DNA of 64,000 nucleotides from Branchiostoma lanceolatum (Eukaryota; Chordata; Leptocardii; Amphioxiformes; Branchiostomatidae): NCBI RefSeq assembly GCF_035083965.1, contig NC_089724.1:253001-317000 (forward strand). Reading direction: 5' to 3'. Within the stretch, counting starts at the first letter, position 1. Each line of letters begins with the position of its first letter. The notes beneath the pieces are model-generated. The model ran no database searches. It worked only from the letters and a program-made list of their open reading frames with translations, and was not told the DNA's origin. Below, in pieces: positions 9,690 to 60,500 of this stretch. The translations under genes and the position numbers were made by a program.

Positions 9690-9734
9690 GTAAGACTGTC
9701 ACGCACAGAACCTTTCATAAACATCATGGCAAAA

Positions 9735-24494: not shown

Positions 24495-24495
24495 G

Positions 24496-26933: not shown

Positions 26934-26943
26934 GTAAACAGCA

Positions 26944-31734: not shown

Positions 31735-32100
31735 AACTGCCCTGAGCTACCAGCCGGGCAACTGCCCTGAGCTACCAGCCGGGCAACTGCCCGGTGCTAC
31801 CAGCCGGGCAACTGCCCTGAGGTACCGGCCGGGCAACTGCCCTGAGCTACCCCCCGGGCAACTGCCCTGAGCTACCGGCCGGGCAACTGCCCTGAGGTTT
31901 CGGCCGGGCAACTGCCCTGAGGTACCAGCCGGGCAACTGCCCTGAGGTACCGGCCGGGCAACTGCCCTGAGGTACCGGCCGGGCAACTGCCCTGAGGTAC
32001 CAGCCGGGCAACTGCCCTGAGGTACCGGCCGGGCAACTGCCCTGAGGTACCGGCCGGGCAACTGCCCTGTGCTAGCTGCTGGCCGGGCAACTGCCCTGAG
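31735..32100. repeat. 25-bp minisatellite (about 15 copies), right arm
   Basis: Inverse of the left-arm array with the same nested palindromes, but about seven units shorter. Arm-specific gain or loss has therefore occurred since the arms separated. Confidence 0.95.
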
Positions 32101-32344
32101 CTACCATTCAAAATGATGAAATCAAGACGAGACGGCTGAATAATACAAATATTGGTCAGGGCAATCGCCCCCACTAGTCAGACATTTCAGAAAATAAGTG
32201 TCGTTAAAAGACAAATACTTGTACAAGATGACGTGATTTTTTGAAAAGTTCAACCCTCAATTTTCGAATTTTCAAGGAAAAAAAGAGGAATAAAATGGAT
32301 TTTCCCTTATTATTTTGGATTCTGTTAGTATATCATCTAGTTCA

Positions 32345-32475: not shown

Positions 32476-33589
32476 GCCCTAACATGTCACGTTTTTTACG
32501 CGCTCGAACTCACGGCTACATCTCTGGTTGCCAGAGAGTGGTCAGGTTTTTATAAATGAATTTTGAACACATTCATCTCAAGAACATACTTGGACACAAA
32601 ATGAATTCATACTGTTCATGGGCCCTTCACGCTCCGCGTTACAAGCTGAAAATGCTGTGAGATGTTTTCGCGAATGTTCGTTCTGATTTAGTGCTAAGCT
32701 AGATAGTGTGCCTAACTTAGCACGCTTTTGTAATTTTGCTCTCTTCGGAAGTTGGTGATGAAGTTAAGAAAATGTAAATATGACTTGTAGTCCACTATAT
32801 TGTAGCTTTCTTTTGACCGGAAAGTTTCTGACTGTGTGCACGTCTCACGTCATGTGAGAAGGCCTATCTAGCGCATCCCAGCTCATGTTTTCATGGGAAA
32901 TAGGCTACTACGCACTGTGCGCGCGGCCCGACGTACGTATTGAACGTACGTACTTACAAAATCATTACGAAAAAACGACACCGCTTACATCAATAATACT
33001 CCGTCTACTTATTGGCAAATATCTTCGCCATCTCTGTTTTCAGTTTCCTTTTCATAGACGGTACCAATCACATGTTAGAGCGTAACACATCTGTGCGTTG
33101 AATCGTCCCGCCACCATCCCGGCCAGAAAAAAAGGCGGGAAAACAATATCGCCAGACGACAGCGATGTTTACGTTGTTTTTCTTTGGTCAGTTTTGTCCT
33201 GAACAAACATTTAAAGACCCAAATTTTAGTGCTTTTAAAGTTATATTTCTTACGTGTATGATAGTTGTGTATCTGCTTGGCACAGGTCGTATATTTTGGC
33301 ACTGGGCCGTCTAGCTATGCAGTGACCCTCTACTCAGCGCTACCATCATTATTGTCAAAATACTATTTTTCGACAAAACAAGAAATAAATATGTACACAT
33401 ATGTTTTGCATGCAAATGACAGCTATGTGCATGAACTTCATTTATTTACCTTCCTTATCAGTATAGTCAGTGGTCACAAACACGGTGTACTTATGCAAAA
33501 TAAGATCAGTAAAAATCCGTGCCATCTTAGGGCGCGTGACAAGTTCGGGCACCCCCCGTTACACGTATTTTACTCGAGCTTTTCCATCT
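32476..33589. other. Intron sequence between repeat blocks
   Basis: No gene or named repeat seen. Confidence 0.5.
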
Positions 33590-36500: not shown

Positions 36501-37537
36501 TATATGTATGTTCACTCTCCCATCTACATACATGTATGTTCACTCTCCCATCTACATACATGTATGTTCACTCTCCCATCTACATATATGTATGTTCACT
36601 CTCCCACCTACATATATGTATGTCCACTCTCCCACCTACATATATGTATGTTCACTCTCCCACCTACATATATGTATGTCCACTCTCCCACCTACATATA
36701 TGTATGTCCACTCTCCCACCTACATATATGTATGTTCACTCTCCCATCTACATATATGTATGTTCACTCTCCCATCTACATACATGCATGTTCACTCTCC
36801 CATCTACATATATGTATGTTCACTCTCCCATCTACATACATGTATGTTCACTCTCCCATCTACATACATGTATGTTCACTCTCCCATCTACATACATGTA
36901 TGTTCACTCTCCCATCTACATACATGTATGTTCACTCTCCCATCTACATACATGTATGTTCACTCTCCCATCTACATATATGTATGTTAACTCTCCCATC
37001 TACATACATGTATGTTCACTCTCCCATCTACATACATGTATGTTCACTCTCCCATCTTCATACATGTATGTTCACTCTCCCATCTACATACATGTATGTT
37101 CACTCTCCCATCTACATACATGTATGTTCACTCTCCCACCTACATACATGCATGTTCACTCTCCCATCTACATACATGTATGTTCACTCTCCCATCTACA
37201 TACATGTATGTTCACTCTCCCATCTACATACATGTATGTTCACTCTCCCATCTACATACATGTATGTTCACTCTCCCATCTACATACATGTATGTTCACT
37301 CTCCCATCTACATATATGTATGTTCACTCTCCCATCTACATACATGTATGTTCACTCTCCCATCTACATATATGTATGTTAACTCTCCCATCTACATACA
37401 TGTATGTTCACTCTCCCACCTACATACATGCATGTTCACTCTCCCATCTACATATATGTATGTTAACTCTCCCATCTACATACATGTATGTTCACTCTCC
37501 CATCTACATACATGTATGTTCACTCTCCCATCTACAG
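33590..37537 (+). repeat. 28-bp minisatellite (about 141 copies) ending at a splice acceptor
   Basis: The unit has a pyrimidine tract (TTCACTCTCCCATCTACA) and a palindromic core (ACATACATGTATGT). The core comes in three versions, with cores CATGCATG, ACATGT or ATATAT, enriched in the 5', middle and 3' parts respectively. All three plus-strand frames are stop-free because 28 is not a multiple of 3, so the open frames of up to 1360 codons are artefacts. The last unit reads CTCTCCCATCTACAG and is the acceptor of the terminal exon. Confidence 0.97.
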
Positions 37538-42102: not shown

Positions 42103-42148
42103 TCACAGGAAGGTGACACCGACCCCCAGCTGCACACTTTCACTCACT
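42103..42148 (-). CDS. SAMM50: SAMM50 last exon (beta-signal and stop)
   Basis: Acceptor gtttacttcag on the minus strand. One base completes the Lys codon split at 47963. It then encodes VSESVQLGVGVTFL and TGA. The end fits the mitochondrial beta-signal (polar-x-Gly-x-x-hydrophobic-x-hydrophobic: QLGVGVTF). The length and end match the known SAMM50 C-terminus. Found by phase and motif, since it is only 15 codons long. Confidence 0.85.
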
Positions 42149-42689: not shown

Positions 42690-45600
42690 TTAAGAATAAG
42701 AAAACCTCTTTACTCCCCCCCCCCCAAGTCTAAGGTCTGTAAGAATAAGAAAGCCTTACTTGTCCCCCGTCCTGGCCCCCCCCTGGTATACAGTAGTTCA
42801 GCTGATTAAGAATGAGAAAGCCTTACTTGTCCCCCGTCCTGGCCCCCCCCTGGTACGCAGTAGTTCAGCTGATTAAGAATGAGAAAGCCTTACTTGTCCC
42901 CCGTCCTGGCCCCCCCTGGTATACAGTAGTTCAGCTGATTAAGAATGAGAAAGCCTTACTTGTCTCCCGTCCTGGCCCCCCCTGGTATGCAGTAGTTCAG
43001 CTGATTAAGAATGAGAAAGCCTTACTTGTCTCCCGTCCTGGCCCCCCCCGGTATGCAGTAGTTCAGCTGATTAAGAATAAGAAAGCCTTACTTGTCCCCC
43101 GTCCTGGCCCCCCCCTGGTATACAGTAGTTCAGCTGATTAAGAATGAGAAAGCCTTACTTGTCCCCCGTCCTGGCCCCCCCCTGGTACGCAGTAGTTCAG
43201 CTGATTAAGAATAAGAAAGCCTTACTTGTCCCCCGTCCTGGCCCCCCCTGGTATACAGTAGTTCAGCTGATTAAGAATAAGAAAGCCTTACTTGTCCCCC
43301 GTCCTGGCCCCCCCTGGTATGCAGTAGTTCAGCTGATTAAGAATAAGAAAGCCTTACTTGTCTCCCGTCCTGGCAACCCCTGGTATACAGTAGTTCAGCT
43401 GATTAAGAATAAGAAAGCCTTACTTGTCCCCCGTCCTGGCCCCCCCTGGTATACAGTAGTTCAGCTGATTAAGAATGAGAAAGCCTTACTTGTCTCCCGT
43501 CCTGGCCCCCCCTGGTATACAGTAGTTCAGCTGATTAAGAATGAGAAAGCCTTACTTGTCTCCCGTCCTGGCCCCCCCCGGTATACAGTAGTTCGGCTGA
43601 TTAAGAATAAGAAAGCCTTACTTGTCTCCCGTCCTGGCCCCCCCTGGTATACAGTAGTTCAGCTGATTAAGAATGAGAAAGCCTTACTTGTCCCCCGTCC
43701 TGGCCCCCCCCTGGTATACAGTAGTTCGGCTGATTAAGAATAAGAAAGCCTTACTTGTCTCCCGTCCTGGCCCCCCCTGGTATGCAGTAGTTCAGCTGAT
43801 TAAGAATGAGAAAGCCTTACTTGTCTCCCGTCCTGGCCCCCCCCGGTATGCAGTAGTTCAGCTGATTAAGAATAAGAAAGCCTTACTTGTCCCCCGTCCT
43901 GGCCCCCCCTGGTATACAGTAGTTCGGCTGATTAAGAATAAGAAAGCCTTACTTGTCTCCCGTCCTGGCCCCCCCTGGTATGCAGTAGTTCAGCTGATTA
44001 AGAATAAGAAAGCCTTACTTGTCCCCCGTCCTGGCCCCCCCTGGTATACAGTAGTTCAGCTGATTAAGAATAAGAAAGCCTTACTTGTCTCCCGTCCTGG
44101 CCCCCCCTGGTATACAGTAGTTCAGCTGATTAAGAATAAGAAAGCCTTACTTGTCTCCTGTCCTGGCCCCCCCTGGTATACAGTAGTTCAGCTGATTAAG
44201 AATAAGAAAGCCTTACTTGTCTCCCGTCCTGGCCCCCCCTGGTATGCAGTAGTTCAGCTGATTAAGAATAAGAAAGCCTTACTTGTCTCCCGTCCTGGCC
44301 CCCCCTGGTATACAGTAGTTCAGCTGATTAAGAATAAGAAAGCCTTACTTGTCCCCCGTCCTGGCCCCCCCTGGTATACAGTAGTTCAGCTGATTAAGAA
44401 TAAAAAAGCCTTACTTGTCTCCCGTCCTGGCCCCCCCTGGTATACAGTAGTTCAGCTGATTAAGAATAAGAAAGCCTTACTTGTCTCCCGTCCTGGCCCC
44501 CCCTGGTATGCAGTAGTTCAGCTGATTAAGAATAAGAAAGCCTTACTTGTCCCCCGTCCTGGCCCCCCTGGTATGCAGTAGTTCAGCTGATTAAGAATAA
44601 GAAAGCCTTACTTGTCTCCCGTCCTGCCCCCCCTGGTATGCAGTAGTTCAGCTGATTAAGAATGAGAAAGCCTTGCTTGTCCCCCGTCCTGGCCCCCCCT
44701 GGTATACAGTAGTTCAGCTGATTAAGAATGAGAAAGCCTTACTTGTCCCCCGTCCTGGCCCCCCCTGGTATGCAGTAGTTCAGCTGATTAAGAATGAGAA
44801 AGCCTTGCTTGTCCCCCGTCCTGGCTCCCCTGGTATGCAGTAGTTCAGCTGATTAAGAATGAGAAAGCCTTACTTGTCCCCCGTCCTGGCCCCCCCTGGT
44901 ATGCAGTAGTTCAGCTGATTAAGAATGAGAAAGCCTTACTTGTCCCCCGTCCTGGCCCCCCATGGTATGCAGTAGTTCAGCTGATTAAGAATAAGAAAGC
45001 CTTACTTGTCCCCCGTCCTGGCCCCCCTGGTATGCAGTAGTTCAGCTGATTAAGAATAAGAAAGCCTTACTTGTCTCCCGTCCTGCCCCCCCTGGTATGC
45101 AGTAGTTCAGCTGATTAAGAATGAGAAAGCCTTGCTTGTCCCCCGTCCTGGCCCCCCCTGGTATACAGTAGTTCAGCTGATTAAGAATGAGAAAGCCTTA
45201 CTTGTCCCCCGTCCTGGCCCCCCCTGGTATGCAGTAGTTCAGCTGATTAAGAATGAGAAAGCCTTACTTGTCCCCCGTCCTGGCCCCCCCTGGTATACAG
45301 TACGTAGTTCAGCTGATTAAGAATGAGAAAGCCTTACTTGTCCCCCGTCCTGGCCCCCCTGGTATGCAGTAGTTCAGCTGATTAAGAATGAGAAAGCCTT
45401 GCTTGTCCCCCGTCCTGGCTCCCCTGGTATGCAGTAGTTCAGCTGATTAAGAATGAGAAAGCCTTACTTGTCCCCCGTCCTGGCCCCCCCTGGTATGCAG
45501 TAGTTCAGCTGATTAAGAATGAGAAAGCCTTACTTGTCCCCCGTCCTGGCTCCCCTGGTATGCAGTAGTTCAGCTGATTAAGAATGAGAAAGCCTTGCTT

Positions 45601-48006
45601 GTCCCCCGTCCTGGCCCCCCCTGGTATACAGTAGTTCAGCTGATTAAGAATGAGAAAGCCTTACTTGTCCCCCGTCCTGGCCCCCCCCCCCCCTGGTATG
45701 CAGTAGTTCAGCTGATTAAGAATAAGAAAGCCTTACTTGTCTCCCGTCCTGGCCCCCCCTGGTATGCAGTAGTTCAGCTGATTAAGAATGAGAAAGCCTT
45801 GCTTGTCCCCCGTCCTGGCCCCCCCTGGTATACAGTAGTTCAGCTGATTAAGAATGAGAAAGCCTTACATGTGTCCCCCGTCCTGGCCCCCCCCCCCCCT
45901 GGTATGCAGTAGTTCAGCTGATTAAGAATAAGAAAGCCTTACTTGTCCCCCGTCCTGCCCCCCCTGGTATGCAGTAGTTCAGCTGATTAAGAATGAGAAA
46001 GCCTTACTTGTCCCCCGTCCTGGCCCCCCCTGGTATGCAGTAGTTCAGCTGATTAAGAATAAGAAAGCCTTACTTGTCCCCCGTCCTGGCCCCCCCTGGT
46101 ATACAGTAGTTCAGCTGATTAAGAATGAGAAAGCCTTACTTGTCTCCCATCCTGCCCCCCCCCCCCCCCCTGGTATACAGTAGTTCAGCTGATTAAGAAT
46201 AAGAAAGCCTTACTTGTCCCCCGTCCTGCCCCCCCTGGTATGCAGTAGTTCAGCTGATTAAGAATGAGAAAGCCTTACTTGTCTCCCATCCTGCCCCCCC
46301 CCTGGTATGCAGTAGTTCAGCTGATTAAGAATGAGAAAGCCTTACTTGTCCCCCGTCCTGGCCCCCCCTGGTATGCAGTAGTTCAGCTGATTAAGAATGA
46401 GAAAGCCTTACTTGTCCCCCGTCCTGGCCCCCCCCCCCTGGTATGCAGTAGTTCAGCTGATTAAGAATGAGAAAGCCTTACTTGTCCCCCGTCCTGGCCC
46501 CCCTGGTATGCAGTAGTTCAGCTGATTAAGAATAAGAAAGCCTTACTTGTCCCCCGTCCTGGCCCCCCCCCCCCCCCTGGTATACAGTAGTTCAGCTGAT
46601 TAAGAATAAGAAAGCCTTACTTGTCTCCCGTCCTGCCCCCCCTGGTATGCAGTAGTTCAGCTGATTAAGAATGAGAAAGCCTTACTTGTCCCCCGTCCTG
46701 GCCCCCCCTGGTATGCAGTAGTTCAGCTGATTAAGAATGAGAAAGCCTTACTTGTCCCCCGTCCTGCCCCCCCTGGTATGCAGTAGTTCAGCTGATTAAG
46801 AATAAGAAAGCCTTACTTGTCCCCCGTCCTGGCCCCCCCCCCCCTGGCATGCAGTAGTTCAGCTGATTAAGAATGAGAAAGCCTTACTTGTCTCCCGTCC
46901 TGCCCCCCCTGGTATGCAGTAGTTCAGCTGATTAAGAATAAGAAAGCCTTACTTGTCCCCCCCCCCCCTGGTATGCAGTAGTTCAGCTGATTAAGAATAA
47001 GAAAGCCTTACTTGTCCCCCGTCCTGGCTCCCCTGGTATACAGTAGTTCAGCTGATTAAGAATAAGAAAGCCTTACTTGTCCCCCGTCCTGCCCCCCCCC
47101 CCTGGTATACAGTAGTTCAGCTGATTAAGAATAAGAAAGCCTTACTTGTCCCCCGTCCTGGCCCCCCCCCCCCTGGCATGCAGTAGTTCAGCTGATTAAG
47201 AATGAGAAAGCCTTACTTGTCTCCCGTCCTGCCCCCCCTGGTATGCAGTAGTTCAGCTGATTAAGAATAAGAAAGCCTTACTTGTCCCCCGTCCTGGCTC
47301 CCCTGGTATACAGTAGTTCAGCTGATTAAGAATAAGAAAGCCTTACTTGTCTCCCGTCCTGCCCCCCCTGGTATGCAGTAGTTCAGCTGATTAAGAATGA
47401 GAAAGCCTTGCTTGTCCCCCGTCCTGGCCCCCCCCCCCCCCCCCCCCCCTGGTATCCAGTAGTTCAGCTGATTAAGAATAAGAAAGCCTTACTTGTCCCC
47501 CGTCCTGGCCCCCCCTGGTACGCAGTAGTTCAGCTGATTAAGAATGAGAAAGCCTTGCTTGTCCCCCGTCCTGGCCCCCCCTGGTATACAGTAGTTCAGC
47601 TGATTAAGAATGAGAAAGCCTTACTTGTCCCCCGTCCTGGCCCCCCCCCCCCCCCTGGTATGCAGTAGTTCAGCTGATTAAGAATAAGAAAGCCTTACTT
47701 GTCCCCCGTCCTGGCCCCCCCTGGTATACAGTAGTTCAGCTGATTAAGAATGAGAAAGCCTTACTTGTCCCCCGTCCTGGCCCCCCCTGGTATACAGTAG
47801 TTCAGCTGATTAAGAATAAGAAAGCCTTACTTGTCCCCCGTCCTGGCCCCCCCTGGTATACAGTAGTTCAGCTGATTAAGAATAAGAAAGCCTTACTTGT
47901 CCCCCGTCCTGGCCCCCCCTGGTATGCAGTAGTTCAGCTGATTAAGAATAAGAAAGCCTTACTTGTCCCCCGTCCTGGCCCCCCCTGGTATGCAGTAGTT
48001 CAGCTC
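42690..48006 (-). repeat. 66-bp minisatellite (about 80 copies) derived from SAMM50 exon 47963-48110 and its donor
   Basis: On the minus strand each unit reads CTGAACTACTG(C/T)ATACC, a G-run, GGACGGGGGACAA, then GTAAGG and TTTCTTATTCTTAATCAG. The first part is the coding end of the adjacent exon (LNYCIP..), GTAAGG is its splice donor, and the last part is acceptor-like. Units at 42800-44570 have constant length, so plus-strand frames stay open. Units at 44570-48000 have G/C runs of 5 to about 20. The open frames (22-residue period) are artefacts. Confidence 0.95.
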
Positions 48007-48110
48007 CAGTCTGGCGACGCGCCCCAGGCGGAACAGAACCCCGACGCCGTACGACCAGCGAACCTCCGACGACATCCGGGACCAGTGGTCGCGATAGTTG
48101 TACACGTCGT
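47963..48110 (-). CDS. SAMM50: SAMM50 exon (strands near the C-terminus)
   Basis: Acceptor gtttacag, donor GACAA|GTAAGG. It encodes HWSRMSSEVRWSYGVGVLFR and then LGRVARLELNYCIPGGARTGD, matching the penultimate strands of Sam50 ('RWSYG.G...RLG..ARLELNYC.P'). The last 41 bases with the donor are the seed of the 66-bp array. If the first donor is skipped, the next codons are AAG TAA, so translation would stop before the beta-signal. Confidence 0.93.
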
Positions 48111-48410
48111 CTGTAAACAAAATCAGGATATACCGATATGGAACATCACTTCGACACGTCTTCTGTAAACAAAATTCAGGATATACCGATAAGGAAGTTA
48201 GATATCCAGGTAGAACATTATTTGAGAATTACTGAGAACTTTGTACACGTCTTCTGTAAACAAAAATCACAATATACTGTTAACGAAGGTTAGATATCCA
48301 GGTAGAAAATCACTTAATAAGATCTCTGAAGAGTCAGACAACATCCGACGACTTCTGTGACCAGTGGTCACGGTAGTTGTACACGTCTTCTGTAAATCCA
48401 CATCAGGAAA
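48111..48410 (-). repeat. Decayed partial copies of the SAMM50 exon start and acceptor
   Basis: The plus-strand motif ACACGTCTTCTGTAAAC recurs at about 48155, 48246 and 48380, like the true exon edge at 48100-48117. The 48340-48395 copy extends into coding sequence (GACCAGTGGTCACGGTAGTT) but is mutated. They are fossils of acceptor-plus-exon tandem duplication. Confidence 0.8.
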
Positions 48411-48654
48411 CATCAACAACAACTTACTGTTAATCTTGACAAAATGTTCAATGTTCAAAGGTTTTTATGGATTCATGAAACCAAATGAATTTACTCTTAT
48501 TAGTCCTTATAGATTACATTGGGAGTTCAAGAAACATGAAAAAATATCTTACTGAAGGTTGTTGATGAAAAGATGAAAAACAACAAAATTTCACATAACA
48601 CTGATTTTTTTCATGGTGGAAATGTTTGTGAAGGTTAGACATCCAGGTAAACAA

Positions 48655-48750
48655 TATATAAAGAGAATTCAAACTCTACAGCTAAATAAAAATGTGGGGA
48701 TTTGTTTCCGTAGAATAAATCAGTTGTAGAGTTTGAATTCTCTTTATATA
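48655..48750. repeat. Perfect 26-bp inverted repeat (hairpin)
   Basis: 48655-48680 and 48725-48750 are exact inverse copies (AGAGAATTCAAACTCTACA core), separated by 44 bases. Probably a young small fold-back element in a SAMM50 intron. Confidence 0.85.
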
Positions 48751-48786
48751 TTCATGGAGGATAAACAATACAGAAAATGTACTGAC

Positions 48787-48933
48787 CTAAGTTGGGCTGG
48801 AAGAGATTTCCGGCCGTGACGAACATGTGAGTCCTGAACAGCTCTCCGAACCCCCCCTTACCCGGCCGGAAGGGCAGGGGGGTGTACAGGTGGAGCCCAG
48901 CCGCCCAGAAACCCTCCCCTCCCATAAAGTCAC
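48787..48933 (-). CDS. SAMM50: SAMM50 exon ([20 protein letters not shown])
   Basis: Acceptor gtgttgcag, donor TTAG|GTCAGT. It encodes [20 protein letters not shown], then [20 protein letters not shown], the most recognisable Sam50 barrel segment. Starts with 2 nt completing Gly; ends in phase 1. Its first half is duplicated 120 bases upstream. Confidence 0.95.
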
Positions 48934-48967
48934 CTGCAACACAAGCCAACATGTCACCCCCCTGTCT

Positions 48968-49071
48968 GAACCCCCCTTACCATGCCGGAAGGGCAGGGGG
49001 GTGTACAGGTGGAGCCCAGCCGCCCAGAAACCCTCCCCTCCCATAAAGTCACCTGCAACACAAGCGAACAT
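48968..49071 (-). pseudogene. SAMM50: Partial tandem duplicate of the SAMM50 exon 48787-48933
   Basis: Nearly identical to 48848-48952, including the acceptor, but ending inside the exon at a GGTAAGG motif. Reading on from it shifts frame relative to the true exon. Use of this copy would therefore disrupt the protein unless it is spliced out. Confidence 0.9.
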
Positions 49072-49329
49072 GGGAGTCCTTTACATCCTCCCTGCTACAT
49101 TGCTTGGTTGAATAATGTAAATCTACAATTCTACACACTTCTAAAACTAGTAGAAGATGTTACAATGTAGTAAACCACAAAATGCATAAAATTCATATCA
49201 CAGTCATAAGATTAAGTAATTCTATATTCAAGTCCCCTGTAAAAGACCAATCTGGAGATTGGCACAAAGATGTAGTACAATTCTGTTCTATACTACCTGA
49301 AAATAAAAACGGCACATTTTCTGACGTAC

Positions 49330-49468
49330 CTTCTGACTTGGGGCCGATGCCGTGCATGTCGAACCCCCGCAGCGTGGTGGGACCCCCCAGGAAGAAGCGG
49401 TCGTTGACCCTGGAGGACGTGCCCTTCAGCGGTTTCATGACGCCCCCTCGCAGCGAGCAGGACACGAT
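49330..49468 (-). CDS. SAMM50: SAMM50 exon (FFLGGPTTLRGFDMHGIGP)
   Basis: Acceptor tctccccccgtcag, donor GAAG|GTACGT. It encodes VNDRFFLGGPTTLRGFDMHG and then IGPKSEG. The '(F/Y)LGGP...RGF' motif is the conserved Omp85-family L6-loop region, whose RGF/RGY arginine is needed for barrel insertion in this family. Present and intact. Confidence 0.95.
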
Positions 49469-49910
49469 CTGACGGGGGGAGAAGGTCACAAAGATCAGAA
49501 ATGTATAAATTATAACATAGGATTACTCCATTTTCTGCAATCAGCATGATCTGGAGGGTGAAAAAAATGTACTAAAGACTAGAAAGGCACATTTTGTAAG
49601 CAAATATATAATGTCTACATGTACCCTCTAATTGTCCAGCATAACTAAATAATGCTCTGTTTATTTTTACTCAAACACACACAACCACAAGAAACAGCAA
49701 AAACAATATGTTTCCTTCTGTGCAGGTGAACATGATAAATAAAATTGAAATTGAAATAATCTGCTGCAGGGTTAGTTCATTTTCCACAGTCAATATGATG
49801 AGAACATGGCTTATTTTCTGCACATGTCGATGAAGGTTTGACATACTCAGTAATACTGGAAAAGTTCCTGCAGTTCCTACGCACCCCTCTAGGGGGCAGC
49901 GCTGACTCAC
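49469..49910. other. SAMM50 intron, no feature seen
   Basis: Plain intron with no array at either splice site. Confidence 0.6.
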
Positions 49911-49997
49911 CGTGTCCCAGACCAGCTCCTTGTTGACCTGGAGTTCAACGTCCTCCTTCAGAAACTTCACATCTCCGCCTGCAATACCGGCCAGCTC
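49911..49997 (-). CDS. SAMM50: SAMM50 exon ([12 protein letters not shown])
   Basis: Acceptor ccctgtag, donor ACG|GTGAGT; 29 codons, phase 0. It encodes [20 protein letters not shown] and VNKELVWDT, matching Sam50 'ELAG..GGDV.F.K...Q..K'. Confidence 0.92.
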
Positions 49998-50339
49998 CTA
50001 CAGGGGGCACACATAACTGGTCAGTTGGAGTATTGTCCACACCAAACGATAATGTCAGTTCAACAGAAATTAATGTCACAGACAGATATGATTCCAGCAA
50101 AATTGCCTATTTTTCCCTCCCCTACCTGAACAGGGGGTGGGACACATTCTGCTTTTTTCAGTAAATGATATTTTTCTAAACCTTTTGTGGACAGAACAAA
50201 CTTTAAGGTAATGCTACTGTATGGTCATCCTTGAACCTTGAAACATCATTTCAGTCCTACCCCAGGATTGACTCATACAGCATTCTGCAGAACACCTTTG
50301 AAGATGTAACATATTTGCCAATACAAAATGTTTCCTTAT
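49998..50339. other. SAMM50 intron, no feature seen
   Basis: No exon or named repeat before the 34-bp array. Confidence 0.5.
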
Positions 50340-52240
50340 CAATTTCTGCAAACATTACATATAATACAGAACACACATCACAGAACACACATTACAGAAC
50401 ACGCATTACAGAACACACTCAGCTGGTTGAGTTTGAACACACATTTTAGAACACACATTTTAGAACACACATTACAGAACACACATCACAGAACCCACAT
50501 TACAGAACACATCACAGAACCCACCTGGTTGAGTTTGAACACACATCACAGAACCCACCTGGTTGAGTTTGAACACACATCACAGAACCCACCTGGTTGA
50601 GTTTGAACACACATCACAGAACCCACCTGGTTGAGTTTGAACACACATCACAGAACCCACCTGGTTGAGTTTGAACACACATCACAGAACCCACCTGGTT
50701 GAGTTTGAACACACATCACAGAACCCACCTGGTTGAGTTTGAACACACATCACAGAACCCACCTGGTTGAGTTTGAACACACATCACAGAACCCACCTGG
50801 TTGAACACACATCACAGAACCCACCTGGTTGAGCTTGAACACACATCACAGAACCCACCTGGTTGAGCTTGAACACACATCACAGAACACACATCACAGA
50901 ACACACATTACAGAACACACATCACAGAACACACATTACAGAACACACATCACAGAACTCATGCAAAAGTTCGGCTTTTCGCCGATGACTGCATCTTGCA
51001 GATGAGTGTGAAAGAAAAGACTGACTGTGAAAAACTCCAGAGTGACATAAATGAAATCTGCAGCTGGGAGAAAAAGTGGTTGATGGCATTCAACCCGTCA
51101 AAATGCGAGGTGATGTCAGTCCCGGCTTCCAGAATACCAATAATATTCCCCTATACCCTCCATGATCATCCTCTGGCAAAGGTAAGTTGTACCAAATATC
51201 TTGGCCTTCACATTTCCTCAAACTTGACCTGGGGCAAACACGTCGAAGCAACAACTTCAAAGGCAAACAGAACCTTAGGGATGTTGAGACGCTGCCTGAG
51301 AATCTCCAGCACAGCGGCCAAGGAGAGAGCCTACATGGCTCTTGTAAGACCTGTCCTTGAGTATGGCTGTTGCGTTTGGGATCCCCACACCAGGGAACAG
51401 GTGAGGAGTGTTGAGATGGTTCAGCGAAGAGCAGCCCGATACGTGAGTAATGATTACAGACGCACCAGTTCAGTCACTGCTATGCTGCGTAACTTGGGCT
51501 GGCAAACGCTTGAACTGCGCCGAAAGATTGCCCGCCAAGTCACCCTGTATAAGATCATCCATGGTACTGTTTACGTTCCACACACGACTATGATTGCCCC
51601 GGTGGCTCGATGCTCCCGCCGCACCAATCACTCCCAAACATTGCAGGCCATCGCGTGCAGGAACAACTACTATAGGCTCTCGTTCTTCCCTCGCACCATC
51701 AAAGAGTGGAACGAACTTGAGCCTGGTGTGGCGGAGGCGGGGTCCCTCTCCCAGTTCAAAACCGAACTGGGGAAGACCCTGCTGCATTGAGCCACCCCTA
51801 CACGTCCTTGTATATATGTAAATACATGTATTACTAACTCACTAAATTCACTTGTCCTGTCATTTGCACACACAAATTCAGTTGTTTATGTTCCTTAGTG
51901 CCTCTCCTTTATTTTCCCTTCGTTTTACTTGTTCCGGTCACTTGTGTTGTATCTAACCCATGCGCAACTGCTGATAATCTCAGATATGAGGCTAAGCAGT
52001 AAAGAAGAAGAAGAAGAAGAACCCACCTGGTTGAGTTTGAACACACATTACAGAACACACATTATGGAACACACAGTACAGAACCCACCTGGTTGAGCTT
52101 GAACACACATCACAGAACACACATTACAGAACACACATCACAGAACCCACCTGGTTGAGTTTGAACACACATTACAGAACACACATTATGGAACACACAG
52201 TACAGAACACGCATCACAGAACACGCATCACAGAACCCAC
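50340..52240 (-). repeat. 34-bp minisatellite derived from SAMM50 exon 52241-52312 and its donor
   Basis: On the minus strand each full unit contains TTCAAACTCAACCAG|GTGGGT, identical to the exon end (FKLNQ) and its donor, followed by TCTGTGATGTGTG. Stretches at both ends consist of a shorter period (about 14-15 bases, ACACATCACAGA-type) that is a sub-part of the unit. The array is split by a retrotransposon at 50959-52018. Confidence 0.95.
50959..52018 (+). mobile_element. 5'-truncated non-LTR retrotransposon with GAA-repeat tail
   Basis: The frame begins at VRLFADDC, the RT catalytic FADD box. It continues with LQSDINEICSWEKKWLMAFN, KYLGLHISSNLTWGKHV and RRAARYVSNDY to a stop at 51788-51790. 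These are hallmarks of the jockey/CR1-like RT C-terminus. A 3' UTR and (GAA)n tail end at 52018, directly back in the 34-bp array. All upstream ORF1, endonuclease and finger-domain sequence is missing. It lies antisense to SAMM50. The frame is intact, suggesting a recent insertion. Confidence 0.9.
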
Positions 52241-52312
52241 CTGGTTGAGTTTGAACATGGCCCCTCTCGTCGGCAGGATGGGGTCGTCTCTACTGTCCAC
52301 TACGTAGACGTG
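52241..52312 (-). CDS. SAMM50: SAMM50 exon (DSRDDPILPTRGAMFKLNQ)
   Basis: Acceptor tgttttcag, donor CAG|GTGGGT; 24 codons, phase 0. It encodes HVYVVDSRDDPILPTRGAMF and KLNQ. 'DSRD..ILP.RG' is a conserved Omp85/Sam50 barrel motif. Its last 15 bases and donor seed the 34-bp array. Confidence 0.95.
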
Positions 52313-52343
52313 CTGAAAACACAAAAATAGTCAACATTTCAGG

Positions 52344-52759
52344 CAGGGCTCGAAATTCATCTTTGGGAATAGGTGCACTGGTGCACCCAACTCAAAAAAT
52401 TGGGTGCACAGAAAGAATTTTGGGTGCACCAGATAAAATAAAGTTGAATGTTCTTCAGACCATGATTACAAAGTTTAGAGCTGCTGCCTTTTTTAATTAA
52501 GAACTTCAATCTGTAATTCTAAAGCTAACTTCAAAATTTCAAACAAATAATACATTAAATAAAGTACAGCAAAAAGTTATCATGCTGTTTTGTATACTTA
52601 CATTTCAAGAATATTCTGTATACTAGTGTACAATAGTACCTTGACCCTATAGGCTACAAAAATATATAGGTGCACCAGTGCACCCAGAGTCATAAATTAG
52701 GAGCACAGCTCCAATTTTGGGTGCACTGGGTGCACATGCACCCACTATTTCGAGCCCTG
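52344..52759. mobile_element. MITE with CAGGGCTCGAAAT ends (hAT-like)
   Basis: The ends CAGGGCTCGAAAT and ATTTCGAGCCCTG are inverted. The interior has repeated GGTGCACC..GGTGCACCCA motifs on both sides. TCAGGC is present on both flanks, consistent with a partly merged target duplication. A similar end (CAGGGTTCGAAAT) occurs near 59731. Confidence 0.75.
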
Positions 52760-53100
52760 TCAGGCAAACACAAACAGTTTCAACAGCTCAGGAAAAACAC
52801 AATTCAAACTTGCAGTTTTTCTGATCATGATGTAAAAGAGAGAAAATGTTGAGGATTCAAAGTAAGTGTCTTGACTCAGGAAATAAGTCTTGCAATATGC
52901 AAGACAAGTGAGTGAGAAGCCTATATTCAAACCCAAGACCCTCTGGTCCAGAAGAACGGATACGAACAACTTTCCAGGGCCGCTGCTGTGGCCTGCCCGA
53001 CCAGCCCTGGAGGTCCTCTCTATAACTACACGGGAAACGGAACCATGACTTTGCAGGAGTAAACATGCAGGTTTCATCTCTCTAAGTGTTACGCTGCTGG
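52760..53100. other. SAMM50 intron, no feature seen
   Basis: No exon or named repeat is supported. Confidence 0.5.
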
Positions 53101-53102
53101 AT

Positions 53103-53150
53103 TTACCTTGAGTTAGGATTTGAGGGACTGTACAGCCTGCTCTCGAAGGT
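53103..53150 (-). pseudogene. SAMM50: Decayed copy of the SAMM50 exon 57838-57963 end plus donor
   Basis: On the minus strand: CGAGAGCAGGCTGTACAGTC, then CCTCAAATCCTAACTCAAG|GTAAAT. It resembles the true exon end 4.7 kb away (CGAGAGCAGGCCGGACATTC.., ATCAAG|GTAAAA). It marks the far edge of the 43-bp array. Confidence 0.85.
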
Positions 53151-53199
53151 TATGCCAAACAGCAGTTACTCAAGCAACTGGATATGATTTCGGAAATGG

Positions 53200-56100
53200 T
53201 CAGACATTTGAGTGAGTTAGAGTTAGGGACAGGTTTTACCTTGAGTGAGGAGGGTAGAGTTAGAGTTAGGGACAGGTTTTACCTTGAGTGAGGAGGGTAG
53301 AGTTAGAGTTAGGAGCAGGCTTTACCTTGAGTGAGGAGGGTAGAGTTAGAGCTAGGCACAGGTTTTACCTTGAGTGAGGAGGGTAGAGTTAGAGTTAGGG
53401 ACAGGTTTTACCTTGAGTGAGGAGGGTAGAGTTAGAGTTAGGAGCAGGCTTTACCTTGAGTGAGGAGGGTAGAGTTAGAGCTAGGCACAGGTTTTACCTT
53501 GAGTGAGGAGGGTAGAGTTAGAGTTAGGGACAGGTTTTACCTTGAGTGAGGAGGGTAGAGTTAGAGTTAGGAGCAGGCTTTACCTTGAGTGAGGAGGGTA
53601 GAGTTAGAGCTAGGCACAGGTTTTACCTTGAGTGAGGAGGGTAGAGTTAGAGTTAGGGACAGGTTTTACCTTGAGTGAGGAGGGTAGAGTTAGAGTTAGG
53701 AGCAGGTTTTACCTTGAGTGAGGAGGGTGGAGTTAGAGTAAGGGACAGGTTTTACCTTGAGTGAGGAGGGTAGAGTTAGAGTTAGGGACAGGTTTTACCT
53801 TGAGTGAGGAGGGTAGAGCTAGAGTAAGGAACAGGTTTTACCTTGAGTGAGGAGGGTAGAGCTAGAGTTAGGGACAGGTTTTACCTTGAGCGAGGAGGGT
53901 AGAGTTAGAGCTAGGCACAGGTTTTACCTTGAGTGAGGAGGGTAGAGCTAGAGTTAGGGACAGGTTTTACCTTGAGTGAGGAGGGTTAGAGTAGGGGTTA
54001 GGGACAGGTTTTACCTTGAGTGAGGAGGGTAGAGCTAGAGTTAGGGACAGGTTTTACCTTGAGTGAGGAGGGTAGAGCTAGAGTTAGGGACAGGTTTTAC
54101 CTTGAGTGAGGAGGGTAGAGTTGAGTTACGGACAGGTTTTACCTTGAGTGAGGAGGGTAGAGTTAGAGACAGGTTTTACCTTGAGTGAGGAGGGTAGAGT
54201 TAGAGCTAGGCACAGGTTTTACCTTGAGTGAGGAGGGTTAGAGTAGGGGTTAGGGACAGGTTTTACCTTGAGTGAGGAGGGTGGAGTTAGAGTTAGGGAC
54301 AGGTTTTACCTTGAGTGAGGAGGGTAGAGTTGAGTTACGGACAGGTTTTACCTTGAGCGAGGAGGGTAGAGTTAGAGCTAGGGACAGGTTTTACCTTGAG
54401 TGAGGAGGGTTAGAGTAGGGGTTAGGGACAGGTTTTACCTTGAGTGAGGAGGGTAGAGCTAGAGTTAGGGACAGGTTTTACCTTGAGTGAGGAGGGTAGA
54501 GTTGAGTTACGGACAGGTTTTACCTTGAGTGAGGAGGGTAGAGTTAGAGTTAGGGACAGGTTTTACCTTGAGTGAGGAGGGTTAGAGTAGGGGTTAGGGA
54601 CAGGTTTTACCTTGAGCGAGGAGGGTAGAGTTAGAGCTAGGGACAGGTTTTACCTTGAGTGAGGAGGGTTAGAGTAGGGGTTAGGGACAGGTTTTACCTT
54701 GAGTGAGGAGGGTAGAGCTAGAGTTAGGGACAGGTTTTACCTTGAGTGAGGAGGGTAGAGTTAGAGTTAGGCACAGGTTTTACCTTGAGTGAAGAGGGTA
54801 GAGTTAGAGTTAGGGACAGGTTTTACCTTGAGTGAGGAGGGTAGAGTTAGAGTTAGGGACAGGTTTTACCTTGAGTGAGGAGGGTGGAGTTAGAGTTAGG
54901 GACAGGTTTTACCTTGAGTGAGGAGGGTGGAGTTAGAGTTAGGGACAGGTTTTACCTTGAGTGAGGAGGGTGGAGTTAGAGTTAGGGACAGGTTTTACCT
55001 TGAGTGAGGAGGGTAGAGTTAGAGTTAGGGACAGGTTTTACCTTGAGTGAGGAGGGTGGAGTTAGAGTTAGGGACAGGTTTTACCTTGAGTGAGGAGGGT
55101 AGAGTTGAGTTACGGACAGGTTTTACCTTGAGTGAGGAGGGTAGAGCTAGAGTTAGGGACAGGTTTTACCTTGAGTGAGGAGGGTAGAGCTAGAGTTAGG
55201 GACAGGTTTTACCTTGAGTGAGGAGGGTAGAGTTAGAGTTACGGACAGGTTTTACCTTGAGCGAGGAGGGTAGAGTTAGAGTTAGGGACAGGTTTTACCT
55301 TGAGTGAGGAGGTTAGAGTAAGGGTTAGGGACAGGTTTTACCTTGAGTGAGGAGGGTAGAGTTAGAGTTAGGGACAGGTTTTACCTTGAGTGAGGAGGGT
55401 AGAGCTAGAGTTAGGGACAGGTTTTACCTTGAGTGAGGAGGGTAGAGCTAGAGTTAGGGACAGGTTTTACCTTGAGTGAGGAGGGTAGAGCTAGAGTTAG
55501 GGACAGGTTTTACCTTGAGTGAGGAGGGTAGAGTTGAGTTACGGACAGGTTTTACCTTGAGTGAGGAGGGTAGAGTTAGAGTTAGGCACAGGTTTTACCT
55601 TGAGTGAGGAGGGTAGAGTTAGAGTTAGGGACAGGTTTTACCTTGAGTGAGGAGGGTAGAGTTAGAGTTAGGCACAGGTTTTACCTTGAGTGAGGAGGGT
55701 AGAGTTAGAGTTAGGGACAGGTTTTACCTTGAGTGAGGAGGGTTAGGGTTAGAGTTAGGGACAGGTTTTACCTTGAGTGAGGAGGGTAGAGTTGAGTTAC
55801 GGACAGGTTTTACCTTGAGTGAGGAGGGTAGAGTTAGAGTTAGGCACAGGTTTTACCTTGAGTGAGGAGGGTAGAGTTAGAGTTAGGGACAGGTTTTACC
55901 TTGAGTGAGGAGGGTAGAGTTAGAGTTAGGGACAGGTTTTACCTTGAGTGAGGAGGGTAGAGCTAGAGTAAGGGACAGGTTTTACCTTGAGTGAGGAGGG
56001 TAGAGCTAGAGTAAGGGACAGGTTTTACCTTGAGTGAGGAGGGTAGAGCTAGAGTTAGGGACAGGTTTTACCTTGAGCGAGGAGGGTTAGAGTGAGTTAG

Positions 56101-57837
56101 GGACAGGTTTTACCTTGAGTGAGGAGGGTAGAGCTAGAGTTAGGGACAGGTTTTACCTTGAGTGAGGAGGGTAGAGCTAGAGTTAGGGACAGGTTTTACC
56201 TTGAGTGAGGAGGGTAGAGTTAGAGTAAGGGACAGGTTGTACCTTGAGTGAGGAGGGTAGAGCTAGAGTTAGGGACAGGTTTTACCTTGAGTGAGGAGGG
56301 TAGAGTTAGAGTAAGGAACAGGTTTTACCTTGAGTGAGGAGGGTAGAGCTAGAGTTAGGGACAGGTTTTACCTTGAGTGAGGAGGGTAGAGCTAGAGTAA
56401 GGGACAGGTTTTACCTTGAGTGAGGAGGGTAGAGCTAGAGTAAGGGACAGGTTTTACCTTGAGTGAGGAGGGTAGAGTTAGAGTTAGGGACAGGTTTTAC
56501 CTTGAGTGAGGAGGGTAGAGTTAGAGTTAGGGACAGGTTTTACCTTGAGTGAGGAGGGTAGAGCTAGAGTTAGGGACAGGTTTTACCTTGAGTGAGGAGG
56601 GTTAGAGTTAGAGTAAGGGACAGGTTTTACCTTGAGTGAGGAGGGTAGAGCTAGAGTTAGGGACAGGTTTTACCTTGAGTGAGGAGGGTAGAGTTAGAGT
56701 TAGGGACAGGTTTTACCTTGAGTGAGGAGGGTAGAGTTAGAGTTAGGGACAGGTTTTACCTTGAGTGAGGAGGGTAGAGCTAGAGTAAGGGACAGGTTTT
56801 ACCTTGAGTGAGGAGGGTAGAGCTAGAGTTAGGGACAGGTTTTACCTTGAGTGAGGAGGGTAGAGTTAGAGTTAGGCACAGGTTTTACCTTGAGTGAGGA
56901 GGGTTAGAGTGAGTAAGGAACAGGTTTTACCTTGAGTGAGGAGGGTAGAGCTAGAGTTAGGGACAGGTTTTACCTTGAGTGAGGAGGGTAGAGTTAGAGT
57001 AAGGAACAGGTTTTACCTTGAGCGAGGAGGGTAGAGTTAGAGTTAGGGACAGGTTTTACCTTGAGCGAGGAGGGTGGAGTTAGAGTTAGGGACAGGTTTT
57101 ACCTTGAGTGAGGAGGGTAGAGCTAGAGTTAGGGACAGGTTTTACCTTGAGTGAGGAGGGTAGAGTTAGAGTTAGGGACAGGTTTTACCTTGAGTGAGGA
57201 GGGTAGAGCTAGAGTTAGGGACAGGTTTTACCTTGAGTGAGGAGGGTAGAGTTAGAGCTAGGGACAGGTTTTACCTTGAGTGAAGAGGGTAGAGTTAGAG
57301 TAAGGGACAGGTTTTACCTTGAGCGAGGAGGGTGGAGTTAGAGTTAGGGACAGGTTTTACCTTGAGTGAGGAGGGTAGAGCTAGAGTTAGGAGCAGGTTT
57401 TACCTTGAGTGAGGAGGGTAGAGTTAGAGTTAGGCACAGGTTTTACCTTGAGTGAGGAGGGTAGAGCTAGAGTTAGGGACAGGTTTTACCTTGAGTGAGG
57501 AGGGTAGAGTTAGAGTTAGGGACAGGTTTTACCTTGAGTGAGGAGGGTAGAGTTAGAGTTAGGGACAGGTTTTACCTTGAGTGAGGAGGGTAGAGCTAGA
57601 GTTAGGGACAGGTTTTACCTTGAGTGAGGAGGGTAGAGTTAGAGTTAGGGACAGGTTTTACCTTGAGTGAGGAGGGTAGAGCTAGAGTTAGGGACAGGTT
57701 TTACCTTGAGTGAGGAGGGTAGAGTTAGAGTAAGGAACAGGTTTTACCTTGAGCGAGGAGGGTTAGAGTGAGTTAGGGACAGGTTTTACCTTGAGTGAGG
57801 AGGGTTAGAGTGAGTTAGGATTAGGAGCAGGTTTTAC
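53200..57837 (-). repeat. 43-bp minisatellite (about 108 copies) derived from SAMM50 exon 57838-57963 and its donor
   Basis: On the minus strand each unit contains CTCACTCAAG|GTAAAACCTGT, matching the exon end and donor (CTCAATCAAG|GTAAAACCTG), followed by CCCTAACTCTAACTCTACC. Variants are single-base changes plus a shortened form (GAGTTGAGTTACGG). Early units at 53220-53700 show a three-unit higher-order order (GGGAC, GGAGC, GGCAC). Confidence 0.96.
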
Positions 57838-57963
57838 CTTGATTGAGGATTTGAGGGAATGTCCGGCCTGCTCTCGGACTGCGAACGACGCCATTCTGGT
57901 GAGACAACCGAGCTCCCTCCACACGCCCTCCCACCGCAGGGTCTGCTGGCCCAGCAGGGGGAA
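57838..57963 (-). CDS. SAMM50: SAMM50 exon ([11 protein letters not shown])
   Basis: Acceptor gttccccag, donor ATCAAG|GTAAAA; 42 codons, phase 0. It encodes [20 protein letters not shown], then [20 protein letters not shown]. The 'WEGVWRELG' and 'ASF.VR...GHSLKSS' motifs are typical of animal SAMM50. Its 3' edge seeds the 43-bp array on one side and its 5' edge seeds the approximately 90-bp array on the other. Confidence 0.95.
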
Positions 57964-58560
57964 CTGGGGAACACCAATAACCAATAATCAATAATCACTA
58001 ATCAATCCAGCTCCCTCCACACCCCCTCCCACCGCAGGGTCTGCTGGCCCAGCAGGGGGAACTGGGGAACACCAATAATCAATAATCACTAATCAATCCA
58101 GCTCCCTCCACACCCCCTCCCACCGCAGGGTCTGCTGGCCTAGCAGGGGGAACTGGGGAGCACCAATAATCAATAATCAATCCAGCTCCCTCCACACCCC
58201 CTCCCACCGCAGGGTCTGCTGGCCTAGCAGGGGGAACTGGGGAGCACCAATAATCAATAATCAATAATCACTAATCAATAATCAATCCAGCTCTCTCCAC
58301 ACGCCCTCCCACCACAGGGTCTGCTGGCCCAGCAGGGGGAACTGGGGAACACCAATAATCAATAATCACTAATCAATCCAGCTCCCTCCACACGCCCTCC
58401 CACCGCAGGGTCTGCTGGCCCAGCAGGGGGAACTGGGGAGCACCAATAATCAATAATCAATCCAGCTCTCTCCACACCCCCTCCCACCGCAGGGTCTGCT
58501 GGCCCAGCAGGGGGAACTGGGGAGCACCAATAATCAATGATCAATATAATCAGGGATAGT
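57964..58560 (-). repeat. About 90-bp tandem array derived from the acceptor and first half of exon 57838-57963
   Basis: Six extra copies start near 58009, 58099, 58187, 58287, 58379 and 58465. On the minus strand each holds the acceptor TGGTG(T/C)TCCCCAG, the coding block [18 protein letters not shown] and a piece of intron made of TTGATTATTGATTAGTG-like repeats. Coding differences are few (GGCCTAGCAG against GGCCCAGCAG). Each copy ends before any donor. Confidence 0.95.
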
Positions 58561-58872: not shown

Positions 58873-58960
58873 GGAGATCTCTGAGGCCACGCCCCTGTCC
58901 ACCTCCTTGTAGCTGCTCCATGGGAAATGTCCGACAGTCTTCCAGCCGCTCACGTTCAGT
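58873..58960 (-). CDS. SAMM50: SAMM50 exon (FPWSSYKEVDRGVASE)
   Basis: Acceptor tttccccaccag, donor TCC|GTGAGT. The first base completes a codon, then it encodes LNVSGWKTVGHFPWSSYKEV and DRGVASEIS. 'G.FPWSS..E.DRG' is conserved in Sam50. This is the most 5' exon of the gene in the window and requires an upstream exon ending in phase 2 beyond it. Confidence 0.93.
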
Positions 58961-59997
58961 CTGGTGGGGAAACAAACAAAAATATAAACAAAGAAATAAA
59001 TAAACAAACAAATAAATAAACAAGTCCTGGATATAACCAGGGCTGGAGAACAGAACATGGAGGAGATGTTTGACAGTTCAAGCCACTGAATAGGTGTTAA
59101 CTGATTAGGCATGAACAAGTCTTATATTGTCTGTAACAGGACAAGACATGGAGGAAAGTTGCAGCAGCTGATGTGCAGTCACAGCTAACCAAGTTAGCCA
59201 AATGCACATGACCGCTTAGGGGGAAATTTACCCATTAATCATCAATGGGAATATTAGGACCAAATCATTTCACTTCTGCAGACACGAGTTCCAGCCTGTC
59301 CTAAATTTGCAACGGCCAGGATCTTTGGATGGCAGCTTTATAAGTTTGGGTAAAGACTTAAGTAGAGTTTTTTCCTTTGGCACGGCAGAAGACTGCTGGG
59401 GACTTCAAAGAGGGGATGAATCGATTTTCGAATAATGCATATTAGGAGTTATAAGGGTCTAGATAAGTTTCCTTATCCAGGTGCAACTCCAGGTTTAGAT
59501 CGACAAGTTCAGGTTCAGGTCTGGACCAGGTTTTATGACACTTGAAATCAAGGATTTATGAATGGGAGACCACCATAACACATTCCTAGTATCCTGATGT
59601 CCGATTGCAACTTCTACCAGCAGAATCTGCCACACTGCAATCTTTATCCTGACGTATGACAAAGAATACTGGAGACTAAACTATATGTACGCTCCAACTT
59701 GTTAAGGGTATGAAACATGTATGTCTGTACAGGGTTCGAAATATAATTAAGCAACTTGCATTTTGGAAGCAATATTCAAGATTTGCAAGTAAAAATAATA
59801 TGAACTTGCAATTTTGCAAGTTCAAATACCAGTGGATCATTTAAGGCCAAGAAAATGCATGGTGTTGTTTTAAGGTCCTAAAACCGCTAAAAATGCAGAA
59901 ATTTCCCAACAAAAACTGTTAGGACTGGAGCGTGACTGTATGGGGCCATTTTTATATGCCCTAGTTGTATGTCACCTGACATAAGTATCATTTCAAT

Positions 59998-60500
59998 ATG
60001 TCTATAAAAAAAGAACCATCCGGGAAACATGTCCCATTTGGAACCAGATGTCAGGACATTAACATCTCCCTCCTCCGTGACTGTCCCAGATTTTCAGTGT
60101 CCCAAATTACTTCCTCCTTCCTCCTGACGAAAAAGCGTCATGCTCGGTCCACAGTCTGAGGTTTAACTGTTTTACTTTTACTTCATCATCATCATCATTC
60201 CAGGGTATCATCACTCCTTTGGAGGAACCCCTCCCTTGTCAGACTCCAGGTCTCCAGACTCTGTTGAGCGGTTCTTGGCCATGTAGGGCCCAGGTGTTTA
60301 GTTAGATTGTCACTCCATCTTATTTTGGGGCCGCCCTCTTTTACTTGAAATTTATTAATCATTACAAAATGTCTATCAAAAAAAAAGTGGGGGAAACCCC
60401 CCGAATTTGTAACCAGATGTTAGGACTTAAGTATGTCACTCCTCCGTCCCAGATTTTTCCATGTCCCAAATTACTTCCTCCTGACAACTCCTCCAATTCA
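59998..60500. repeat. Direct duplication flanking a retrotransposon fragment
   Basis: 59998-60130 and 60365-60500 are imperfect direct copies (AACCAGATGT.AGGAC, GTCCCAAATTACTTCCTCC). The insert between them is the fragment at 60180-60345. Confidence 0.7.
60180..60345 (-). pseudogene. Non-LTR retrotransposon 3' fragment
   Basis: Read on the minus strand it encodes RGRPKIRWSDNLTKHLGPTW and then RTAQQ, typical of the C-terminal tail of abundant non-LTR RT proteins. It ends in an (ATG)n tail, like the copy at 10618-11226. Confidence 0.7.

Follow-up and report, generated by a model that had tools for sequence, protein, structure and literature searches.

Tandem arrays across exon-intron junctions of the SAMM50 gene of Branchiostoma lanceolatum: a large example of amphioxus mirages

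Tandem repeats that span exon-intron boundaries have been described in amphioxus under the name 'mirages': the excerpted text of PMC3087553 reports them for two globin genes (BflGb6 and BflGb9), cites an Adh3 mirage with somatic instability together with two further amphioxus gene papers (by title, on retinol dehydrogenase and presenilin), and proposes mirages as a source of new introns. Boundary-spanning repeats were also reported for PGBD5, with Adh and troponin C cited, in the excerpted text of PMC3902484. The locus considered here is SAMM50, a gene on the minus strand of a stretch of 64 kb of Branchiostoma lanceolatum DNA (hereafter the window, i.e., the whole stretch that was analysed). 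Of the 15 edges of SAMM50 exons in view, six carry copies of themselves, five as tandem arrays and one as a set of decayed copies. An earlier reading of the letters of the window (the original prediction) had described the exon-intron junctions of this gene as amplified in tandem, an observation that proved to be real and accurately placed; its mention of such repeats at amphioxus Adh is matched by the mirages in the excerpts of both papers (PMC3087553, PMC3902484).

Arrays at the exon edges of SAMM50

The identity of the gene, as originally predicted, is supported by a match to the Pfam family Omp85 (E 4.8e-49) and by its best solved relatives, which are Sam50 proteins (E 1.8e-27). The spliced translation of eight exons was compared with the annotated SAMM50 of 'Branchiostoma floridae x B. 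japonicum' and was identical to it at 268 of 283 residues (95%) with zero gaps. The eight exons are designated Ea to Eh (Table 1). All exon starts are preceded by AG and all exon ends precede GT, except that of the last exon, which ends in the stop; this rule holds with the borders of Ef and Eh adjusted from their initial placement. The joined reading frame is open through to the terminal stop, and the gap-free alignment to the relative's protein lends independent support to all seven predicted exon joins; wrong exon borders, an outcome that the original prediction had named as speaking against it, are therefore unlikely. For the earlier portion of the protein, no convincing match was found in the window among the matches listed. 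Judged by the annotated SAMM50 of the relative and its gap-free exon borders, none of the surplus junction copies is coding. The aligned part of that protein holds zero repeat-derived residues, the relative being another Branchiostoma that may or may not carry the arrays.

Tandem arrays were called by Tandem Repeats Finder (TRF), and copies of exon edges by self-BLAST of the edges (E 0.01). Intronic TRF rows with a period of at least 20 bp were counted as arrays; nested rows (periods 14, 19, 26, 62, 81, 84, 105, 280 and others) were merged, and repeats with a period below 20 bp were excluded (e.g., 58970-59023 near the Ea acceptor). On this count the introns of SAMM50 hold five minisatellites (periods of at least 34 bp), all five of which contain an exon edge and its splice site. 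The arrayed edges are the donors of Eg, Ec and Eb and the acceptors of Eb and Ef, and the decayed copies belong to the acceptor of Eg; the edges of Ea, Ed, Ee and Eh yielded zero copies in the exon-edge self-BLAST at E 0.01. TRF and self-BLAST agree on the four units that had been named beforehand as an exon edge plus its splice site (66, 34, 43 and about 90 bp), and the 'two more exon edges' then left without a name are presumably the acceptors of Ef and Eg. Together the arrays cover 11,334 of the 16,005 bp (71%) of the seven introns between the SAMM50 exons. The wording that the introns are built from such arrays suits three of them, which consist of arrays to 90%, 84% and 62%, but not the remaining four, in which, to judge from the coordinates, the share is less or none.

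Table 1. Exons of SAMM50 and repeats associated with them (positions in the window)
Feature	Positions	Strand	Remarks
Exon Ea, first SAMM50 exon found in the window	58873-58960	-	no junction array found
Exon Eb	57838-57963	-	donor and acceptor both arrayed, with different units
Exon Ec	52241-52312	-	arrayed at donor
Exon Ed	49911-49997	-	no array found
Exon Ee	49330-49468	-	no array found
Exon Ef	48787-48933	-	acceptor duplicated
Exon Eg	47963-48110	-	66-bp array at donor; decayed copies at acceptor
Exon Eh, last SAMM50 exon (VSESVQLGVGVTFL, stop)	42103-42148	-	no array found
66-bp array, Eg donor	42740-48005	-	TRF, 79.0 copies, 5.3 kb
43-bp array, Eb donor	53214-57849	-	TRF, 107.9 copies (108), 4.6 kb
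Longer copy of the Eb donor edge, past the distal end of the 43-bp array	53096-53145	-	BLAST
34-bp array (14-bp sub-units), Ec donor, distal part	50365-50958	-	TRF
Ec donor array, exon-proximal part	52018-52240	-	TRF, mixed 62-bp and 14-bp periods
Reverse-transcriptase fragment splitting the 34-bp array	50959-52017	+	RVT_1, E 5e-6, 26.8 bits (Pfam cut-off, 29.6 bits, not reached)
About 91-bp (84-105) array, Eb acceptor	57911-58546	-	TRF 57980-58543; 280-bp row 57911-58546
119-bp duplication (1.9 copies), Ef acceptor edge	48852-49072	-	exon part 82 nt (TRF), 92 nt (BLAST)
Decayed copies of the Eg acceptor edge	48111-48408	-	exon-edge self-BLAST

The 66-bp unit comprises the last 41 nt of Eg, the donor and 25 nt of intron, and TRF sets the end of the array 43 bp within the exon. 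The donor dinucleotide is GT in 70 of 78 full units and GC in the other 8, and the spliced junction of Eg itself reads ACAA/GTAAGG (the slash marks the splice site), not AG/GT. In the consensus, the 25-nt intron part of this unit (gene sense) starts with GT and ends with AG, with a pyrimidine run between; that the unit resembles a 41-nt exon followed by a 25-nt intron is probably a coincidence. The 43-bp unit is formed by the last 12 nt of Eb, the donor and intron sequence, and its donor is GT in 107 of 107 full units. The longer copy of the same edge contains 39 nt of exon plus the donor (43 of 50 positions identical); it is read as older and taken to indicate that this one junction underwent duplication at least twice.

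At the Ec donor the unit consists of approximately 17 nt of the end of Ec, the donor and intron sequence, and 14 matches to this junction with an intact donor, including the exon's own, lie in 50300-52260. The reverse-transcriptase fragment that splits this array is antisense to SAMM50, has a short AAG run at its 3' end and is probably 5'-truncated. The unit at the Eb acceptor (the first 53-59 nt or so of Eb, the acceptor and intron sequence) is repeated six to seven times, with seven intact acceptor copies if the exon's own is included. The decayed copies at the Eg acceptor were found at 48335-48408 (84% over 74 bp) and 48241-48287 (83% over 47 bp), with one more near 48154-48196. Separately from the arrays, the segment 52345-52765 looks like a small terminal-inverted-repeat element; by eye, it has near-mirror ends (CAGGGCTCGAAAT ... 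TTTCGAGCCCTG) and GGTGCAC repeats inside.

Older codons and variation among the copies

In the 43-bp array, 107 copies have the codon CTC (Leu) where exon Eb has ATC (Ile). Among nine aligned relatives this residue is Leu in seven and Val in two, and Ile is probably the newer state. In all three decayed copies of the Eg acceptor, the AG is followed by AAGAC instead of the exon's ACGAC, which corresponds to Glu-Asp versus Asp-Asp in the exon; the B. floridae x japonicum SAMM50 (P0001) has Glu-Asp at this site. In the best-kept of the decayed copies, moreover, Asp stands at a position held by Glu in the exon, which likewise matches the B. floridae x japonicum protein. Differences of the opposite kind, in which the copy has changed, are His for Pro in the Ef copy and Gln-Lys for Arg-Met in the Eg copy. 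Judged by the relatives' proteins, the copies with relative-like codons most likely predate the substitutions in the exons and have escaped overwriting by exon sequence ever since.

Substitutions in the 43-bp array number 12 over the 12 positions of the exon part versus 121 over the 31 positions of the intron part, whereas in the 66-bp array 12 of 41 positions are variable in the exon part versus 3 of 25 in the intron part. Constraint on the splice site across the copies, which the 43-bp array suggests, is contradicted by the 66-bp array and was rejected, and it was concluded that there is no general constraint on the array copies. The mean pairwise identity of the array units is 0.957 and 0.943. 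No gradient of decay with distance from the exon copy was found (correlations -0.02 and -0.01), and the search for higher-order repeats gave only a marginal lag signal relative to shuffled order. Homogenisation via slippage or unequal exchange is plausible and weakly supported.

Placement and origin of the arrays

The placement of the arrays was compared with a null in which segments of equal length are placed randomly on array-free SAMM50, the event being that all five span a junction. The nominal probability of this event was 1.8e-4 for the seven introns and 4.9e-6 with the 5-kb intron upstream of Ea added (2.5e-4 and 6.0e-6, respectively, in an analytic version of the same null); these are not clean p-values, as SAMM50 was chosen after the arrays had been noticed. 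The GC (guanine plus cytosine) content of SAMM50 is 0.615 in exons versus 0.389 in introns, and that of the array units is 0.47-0.65. Conditioning on GC, by which a random segment had to reach the units' own GC less 0.02, gave probabilities of 0.020 (seven introns) and 0.0026 (5-kb intron added). The GC-rich exon edges explain much of the junction excess; the association with junctions is real, and the evidence for a preference beyond composition is modest.

Purely intronic tandem repeats with a period of at least 20 bp were not found by TRF in the SAMM50 introns. An unbiased self-comparison returned two repeat pairs away from junctions (59987-60118 with 60358-60482, and 52369-52429 with 52666-52726); they are spaced direct repeats, with a spacing greater than the repeat length, and were left out of the array count. 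The junction excess would be weaker if they were treated as intronic counter-examples. The exon-edge self-BLAST alone returned a further weak spaced pair (48278-48310 with 48623-48655; 33 bp, E 0.002).

A second gene of the window was used as a control. Over 98% of its length, the open reading frame 13838-17131 matches an annotated B. lanceolatum protein (P0121) with 100% identity, and a model of 11 exons at 3611-17131 (KAP NTPase, NACHT and leucine-rich repeats), the borders of which were placed with the aid of P0121, reproduces 1857 of its 1857 residues. As a separate observation, a single annotated gene (1857 aa) here fuses a KAP P-loop NTPase part with a NACHT-leucine-rich-repeat part. The ten introns of the control gene (7,950 bp) have 20 edges, none of which (0/20) yielded copies in the same exon-edge search. 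Its three TRF rows with a period of at least 20 bp, i.e., 3964-4088 (TG-rich, intronic), 4825-4885 (exonic) and 10084-10121 (intronic), do not touch an exon edge.

Arrayed edges amount to 6/15 in SAMM50 versus 0/20 in the control gene (Fisher p 0.003), or to 5/15 versus 0/20 if only TRF arrays are considered (p 0.009), comparisons limited by the fact that the edges of one gene are not independent. Not every gene of the stretch has arrayed edges; they cluster in SAMM50. Over both genes, the junctional share of the intronic arrays is 5/7, which counts against the notion that every such array is junctional.

The length of exon that was copied differs among the five arrays (41, 17, 12, approximately 56 and approximately 87 nt, the last two being the midpoints of 53-59 and 82-92). 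The position of the junction within the unit varies as well, with an exonic fraction of 0.28-0.73 (Kolmogorov-Smirnov test versus uniform, p 0.66, with little power at n = 5), and a fixed offset of the copied segment relative to the splice site was not found in the five arrays. From cutting or slipping at a splice site, copies of a constant segment would be expected; the variable lengths fit ordinary duplications that straddle the border. The arrays are probably mirages in the sense of chance tandem duplications across junctions, which were tolerated by splicing and expanded later.

Such an origin would begin with an ordinary short tandem duplication reaching from a GC-rich exon edge into the intron. 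Splicing would then continue to use the copy attached to the full exon (at donors the first, at acceptors the last), a choice suggested by the relative's protein, and the duplications would be tolerated because splicing at the whole-exon copy leaves the protein unchanged. The surplus copies would become intron and nearly neutral, and could grow or shrink in number and become homogenised through slippage or unequal exchange, up to 79-108 units. A duplication confined to an exon would alter the protein and be lost, so that the exon edge is where GC-rich, duplication-prone sequence can expand. A dedicated mechanism at the splice junction would not be required, and the exon and its arrays would diverge afterwards, with the result that array copies can retain older exon sequence. 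If the proper donor is skipped, an in-frame stop follows 30 nt (Eb), 24 nt (Ec) or 1 nt (Eg) into the intron, and use of the array donors should for this reason be selected against. The corresponding distances at the array-free donors are 39 (Ea), 32 (Ef), 237 (Ed) and 134 nt (Ee); early stops are therefore not specific to arrays.

Some results weigh against this origin by chance duplication. Even after GC conditioning, five of five junctional arrays together with zero purely intronic ones are somewhat unusual (0.020 to 0.0026), so that a residual preference for junctions may exist. The GC test, which relies on the units' own GC, is in part circular, and the GC-richness of the 34- and 43-bp units is just moderate. 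The 0/20 of the control gene means that a chance uniform across genes poorly explains the clustering in SAMM50. The clustering of variants by lag, finally, is marginal (best lag 0.964 versus a 99% null of 0.963, and 0.952 versus 0.950).

The excess at junctions could also stem from a process acting at or near the splice junctions of transcribed genes (R-loops, paused polymerase or breaks at exon borders) that turns them into duplication hot spots in amphioxus. All five intronic minisatellites of SAMM50 being junctional, at a nominal chance down to 4.9e-6, would agree with it, as would the several exons affected, two of them at both edges, and the similar structures in other amphioxus genes described in the excerpts of PMC3087553 and PMC3902484. 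However, the geometry relative to the splice site is not fixed, donors and acceptors are affected alike, GC conditioning removes most of the excess, and the control gene, with its 0/20 arrayed edges, nevertheless has two wholly intronic arrays (period of at least 20 bp). The mechanism at the splice junction that the original prediction had proposed is not supported by the same results, with 12 to approximately 90 nt of exon copied at no fixed offset. That the exon edges of some transcribed amphioxus genes are true hot spots, at which a process linked to transcription or splicing causes tandem duplication, with SAMM50 hit at six edges and its arrays fossilising older edges, is unlikely. A genome-wide junction excess, if it persisted after GC matching, would point to a mutational process that is new and to a source of both growth and gain of introns. 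Survival instead of origin might likewise produce the excess, in that an array touching an exon keeps a selected, intact seed copy and persists or is re-seeded, and purely intronic arrays vanish. The presence of more than one generation of copies per junction (the longer Eb donor copy, the periods of 14, 34 and 62 bp at Ec, the decayed Eg acceptor copies) and the zero purely intronic tandem repeats (period of at least 20 bp) in the SAMM50 introns are in line with such anchoring. Yet the new ATC occurs in the exon's own copy of the Eb edge only, 107 copies keeping CTC, which shows no trace of re-seeding after this change; with distance, similarity to the exon copy is flat (-0.02, -0.01), and the control gene has two purely intronic arrays (period of at least 20 bp), albeit short or TG-rich. 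Anchoring by the exon copy is accordingly rated as quite improbable.

A role in splicing, with the arrays selected as decoys or as recursive or dual-specific sites (AG/GT in the Eb and Ec units), would suit the GT in 107 of 107 units of the Eb donor array and the lower variation of its exon part relative to its intron part, and tandem AGGT dual-specific sites are known in UBC from the excerpts of PMC10809524. The 66-bp array, in contrast, lacks such constraint (12/41 versus 3/25 variable positions; 8 of 78 donors GC), the spliced junction of Eg is ACAA/GT and not AG/GT, and the copies were amplified from one another, so that their counts are not independent; selection for such a role is very unlikely. 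Inflation of the arrays by collapse or expansion of long reads in the assembly can hardly be the explanation: long arrays are difficult to assemble, and one mirage was apparently misassembled in the B. floridae draft, according to the excerpts of PMC3087553, but many positions vary among the units, one array is interrupted by a reverse-transcriptase fragment, and decayed copies are not products of collapse. The existence of the arrays is robust to misassembly; their copy numbers may be off. Chance duplication across the junctions followed by expansion thus remains the preferred explanation.

Other features of the window and comparison with known systems

A large inverted repeat occupies 17463-32325, with arms at 17463-22471 and 27603-32325 and a spacer of approximately 5 kb. 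Identity between the arms is 97.6-97.8% along most of their length and approximately 94% at the outer end, and each arm contains a 25-bp tandem array (17683-18315 and 31644-32106; TRF). Near the middle of the inverted repeat lies a palindrome (24550-24714) that is 95% self-complementary over 166 aligned positions. A 28-bp array at 33584-37536 (141 copies, 95% matches; TRF) is open in long forward frames, and no neighbouring exon was recognised.

Among the matches listed (titles and starts of abstracts in the open-licence literature), neither a SAMM50 mirage nor a genome-wide count of mirages was found, which is weak evidence of absence. With six edges, and three donors that have about 14, 80 and 108 similar copies, SAMM50 constitutes a natural experiment on the choice of sites by the spliceosome, and the retention of lost codons offers a way to date junction arrays.

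Intron gain by tandem duplication resembles the present case, in that the excerpts of PMC3443670 describe extra AG/GT being supplied and exon turned into intron; it differs in that the units of SAMM50 include intron sequence, the introns having evidently existed before. The dual-specific AGGT arrays of human UBC share with SAMM50 the repeated AG/GT, here at the donors of Eb (CAAG/GTAAAA) and Ec (CCAG/GTGGGT). The UBC sites mark off coding ubiquitin monomers and undergo variable splicing, as stated in the excerpts of PMC10809524, whereas the units of SAMM50 are intronic and read-through meets stops.

The closest likeness is to the mirages of other cephalochordate genes. As far as the excerpts describe them, they too consist of head-to-tail units across an exon-intron boundary, at donors as well as acceptors, with AG/GT signals in many units (here GT in 107 of 107 of the 43-bp and 70 of 78 of the 66-bp units). 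For those other genes, normal splicing is described as probably unaffected. Published units measure 10-72 bp in Adh3, 150-160 bp in the globin genes and 60 and 108 bp in PGBD5, and the globin and PGBD5 genes are given with 2-7 copies. SAMM50, in contrast, has six affected edges in one gene, and two of its arrays reach 79 and 108 units (5.3 and 4.6 kb). The SAMM50 arrays are a large, well-preserved example of a known amphioxus feature, exceptional among the cases covered by the published excerpts in the load carried by one gene, in the size of two of the arrays and in the older codons held by the copies.

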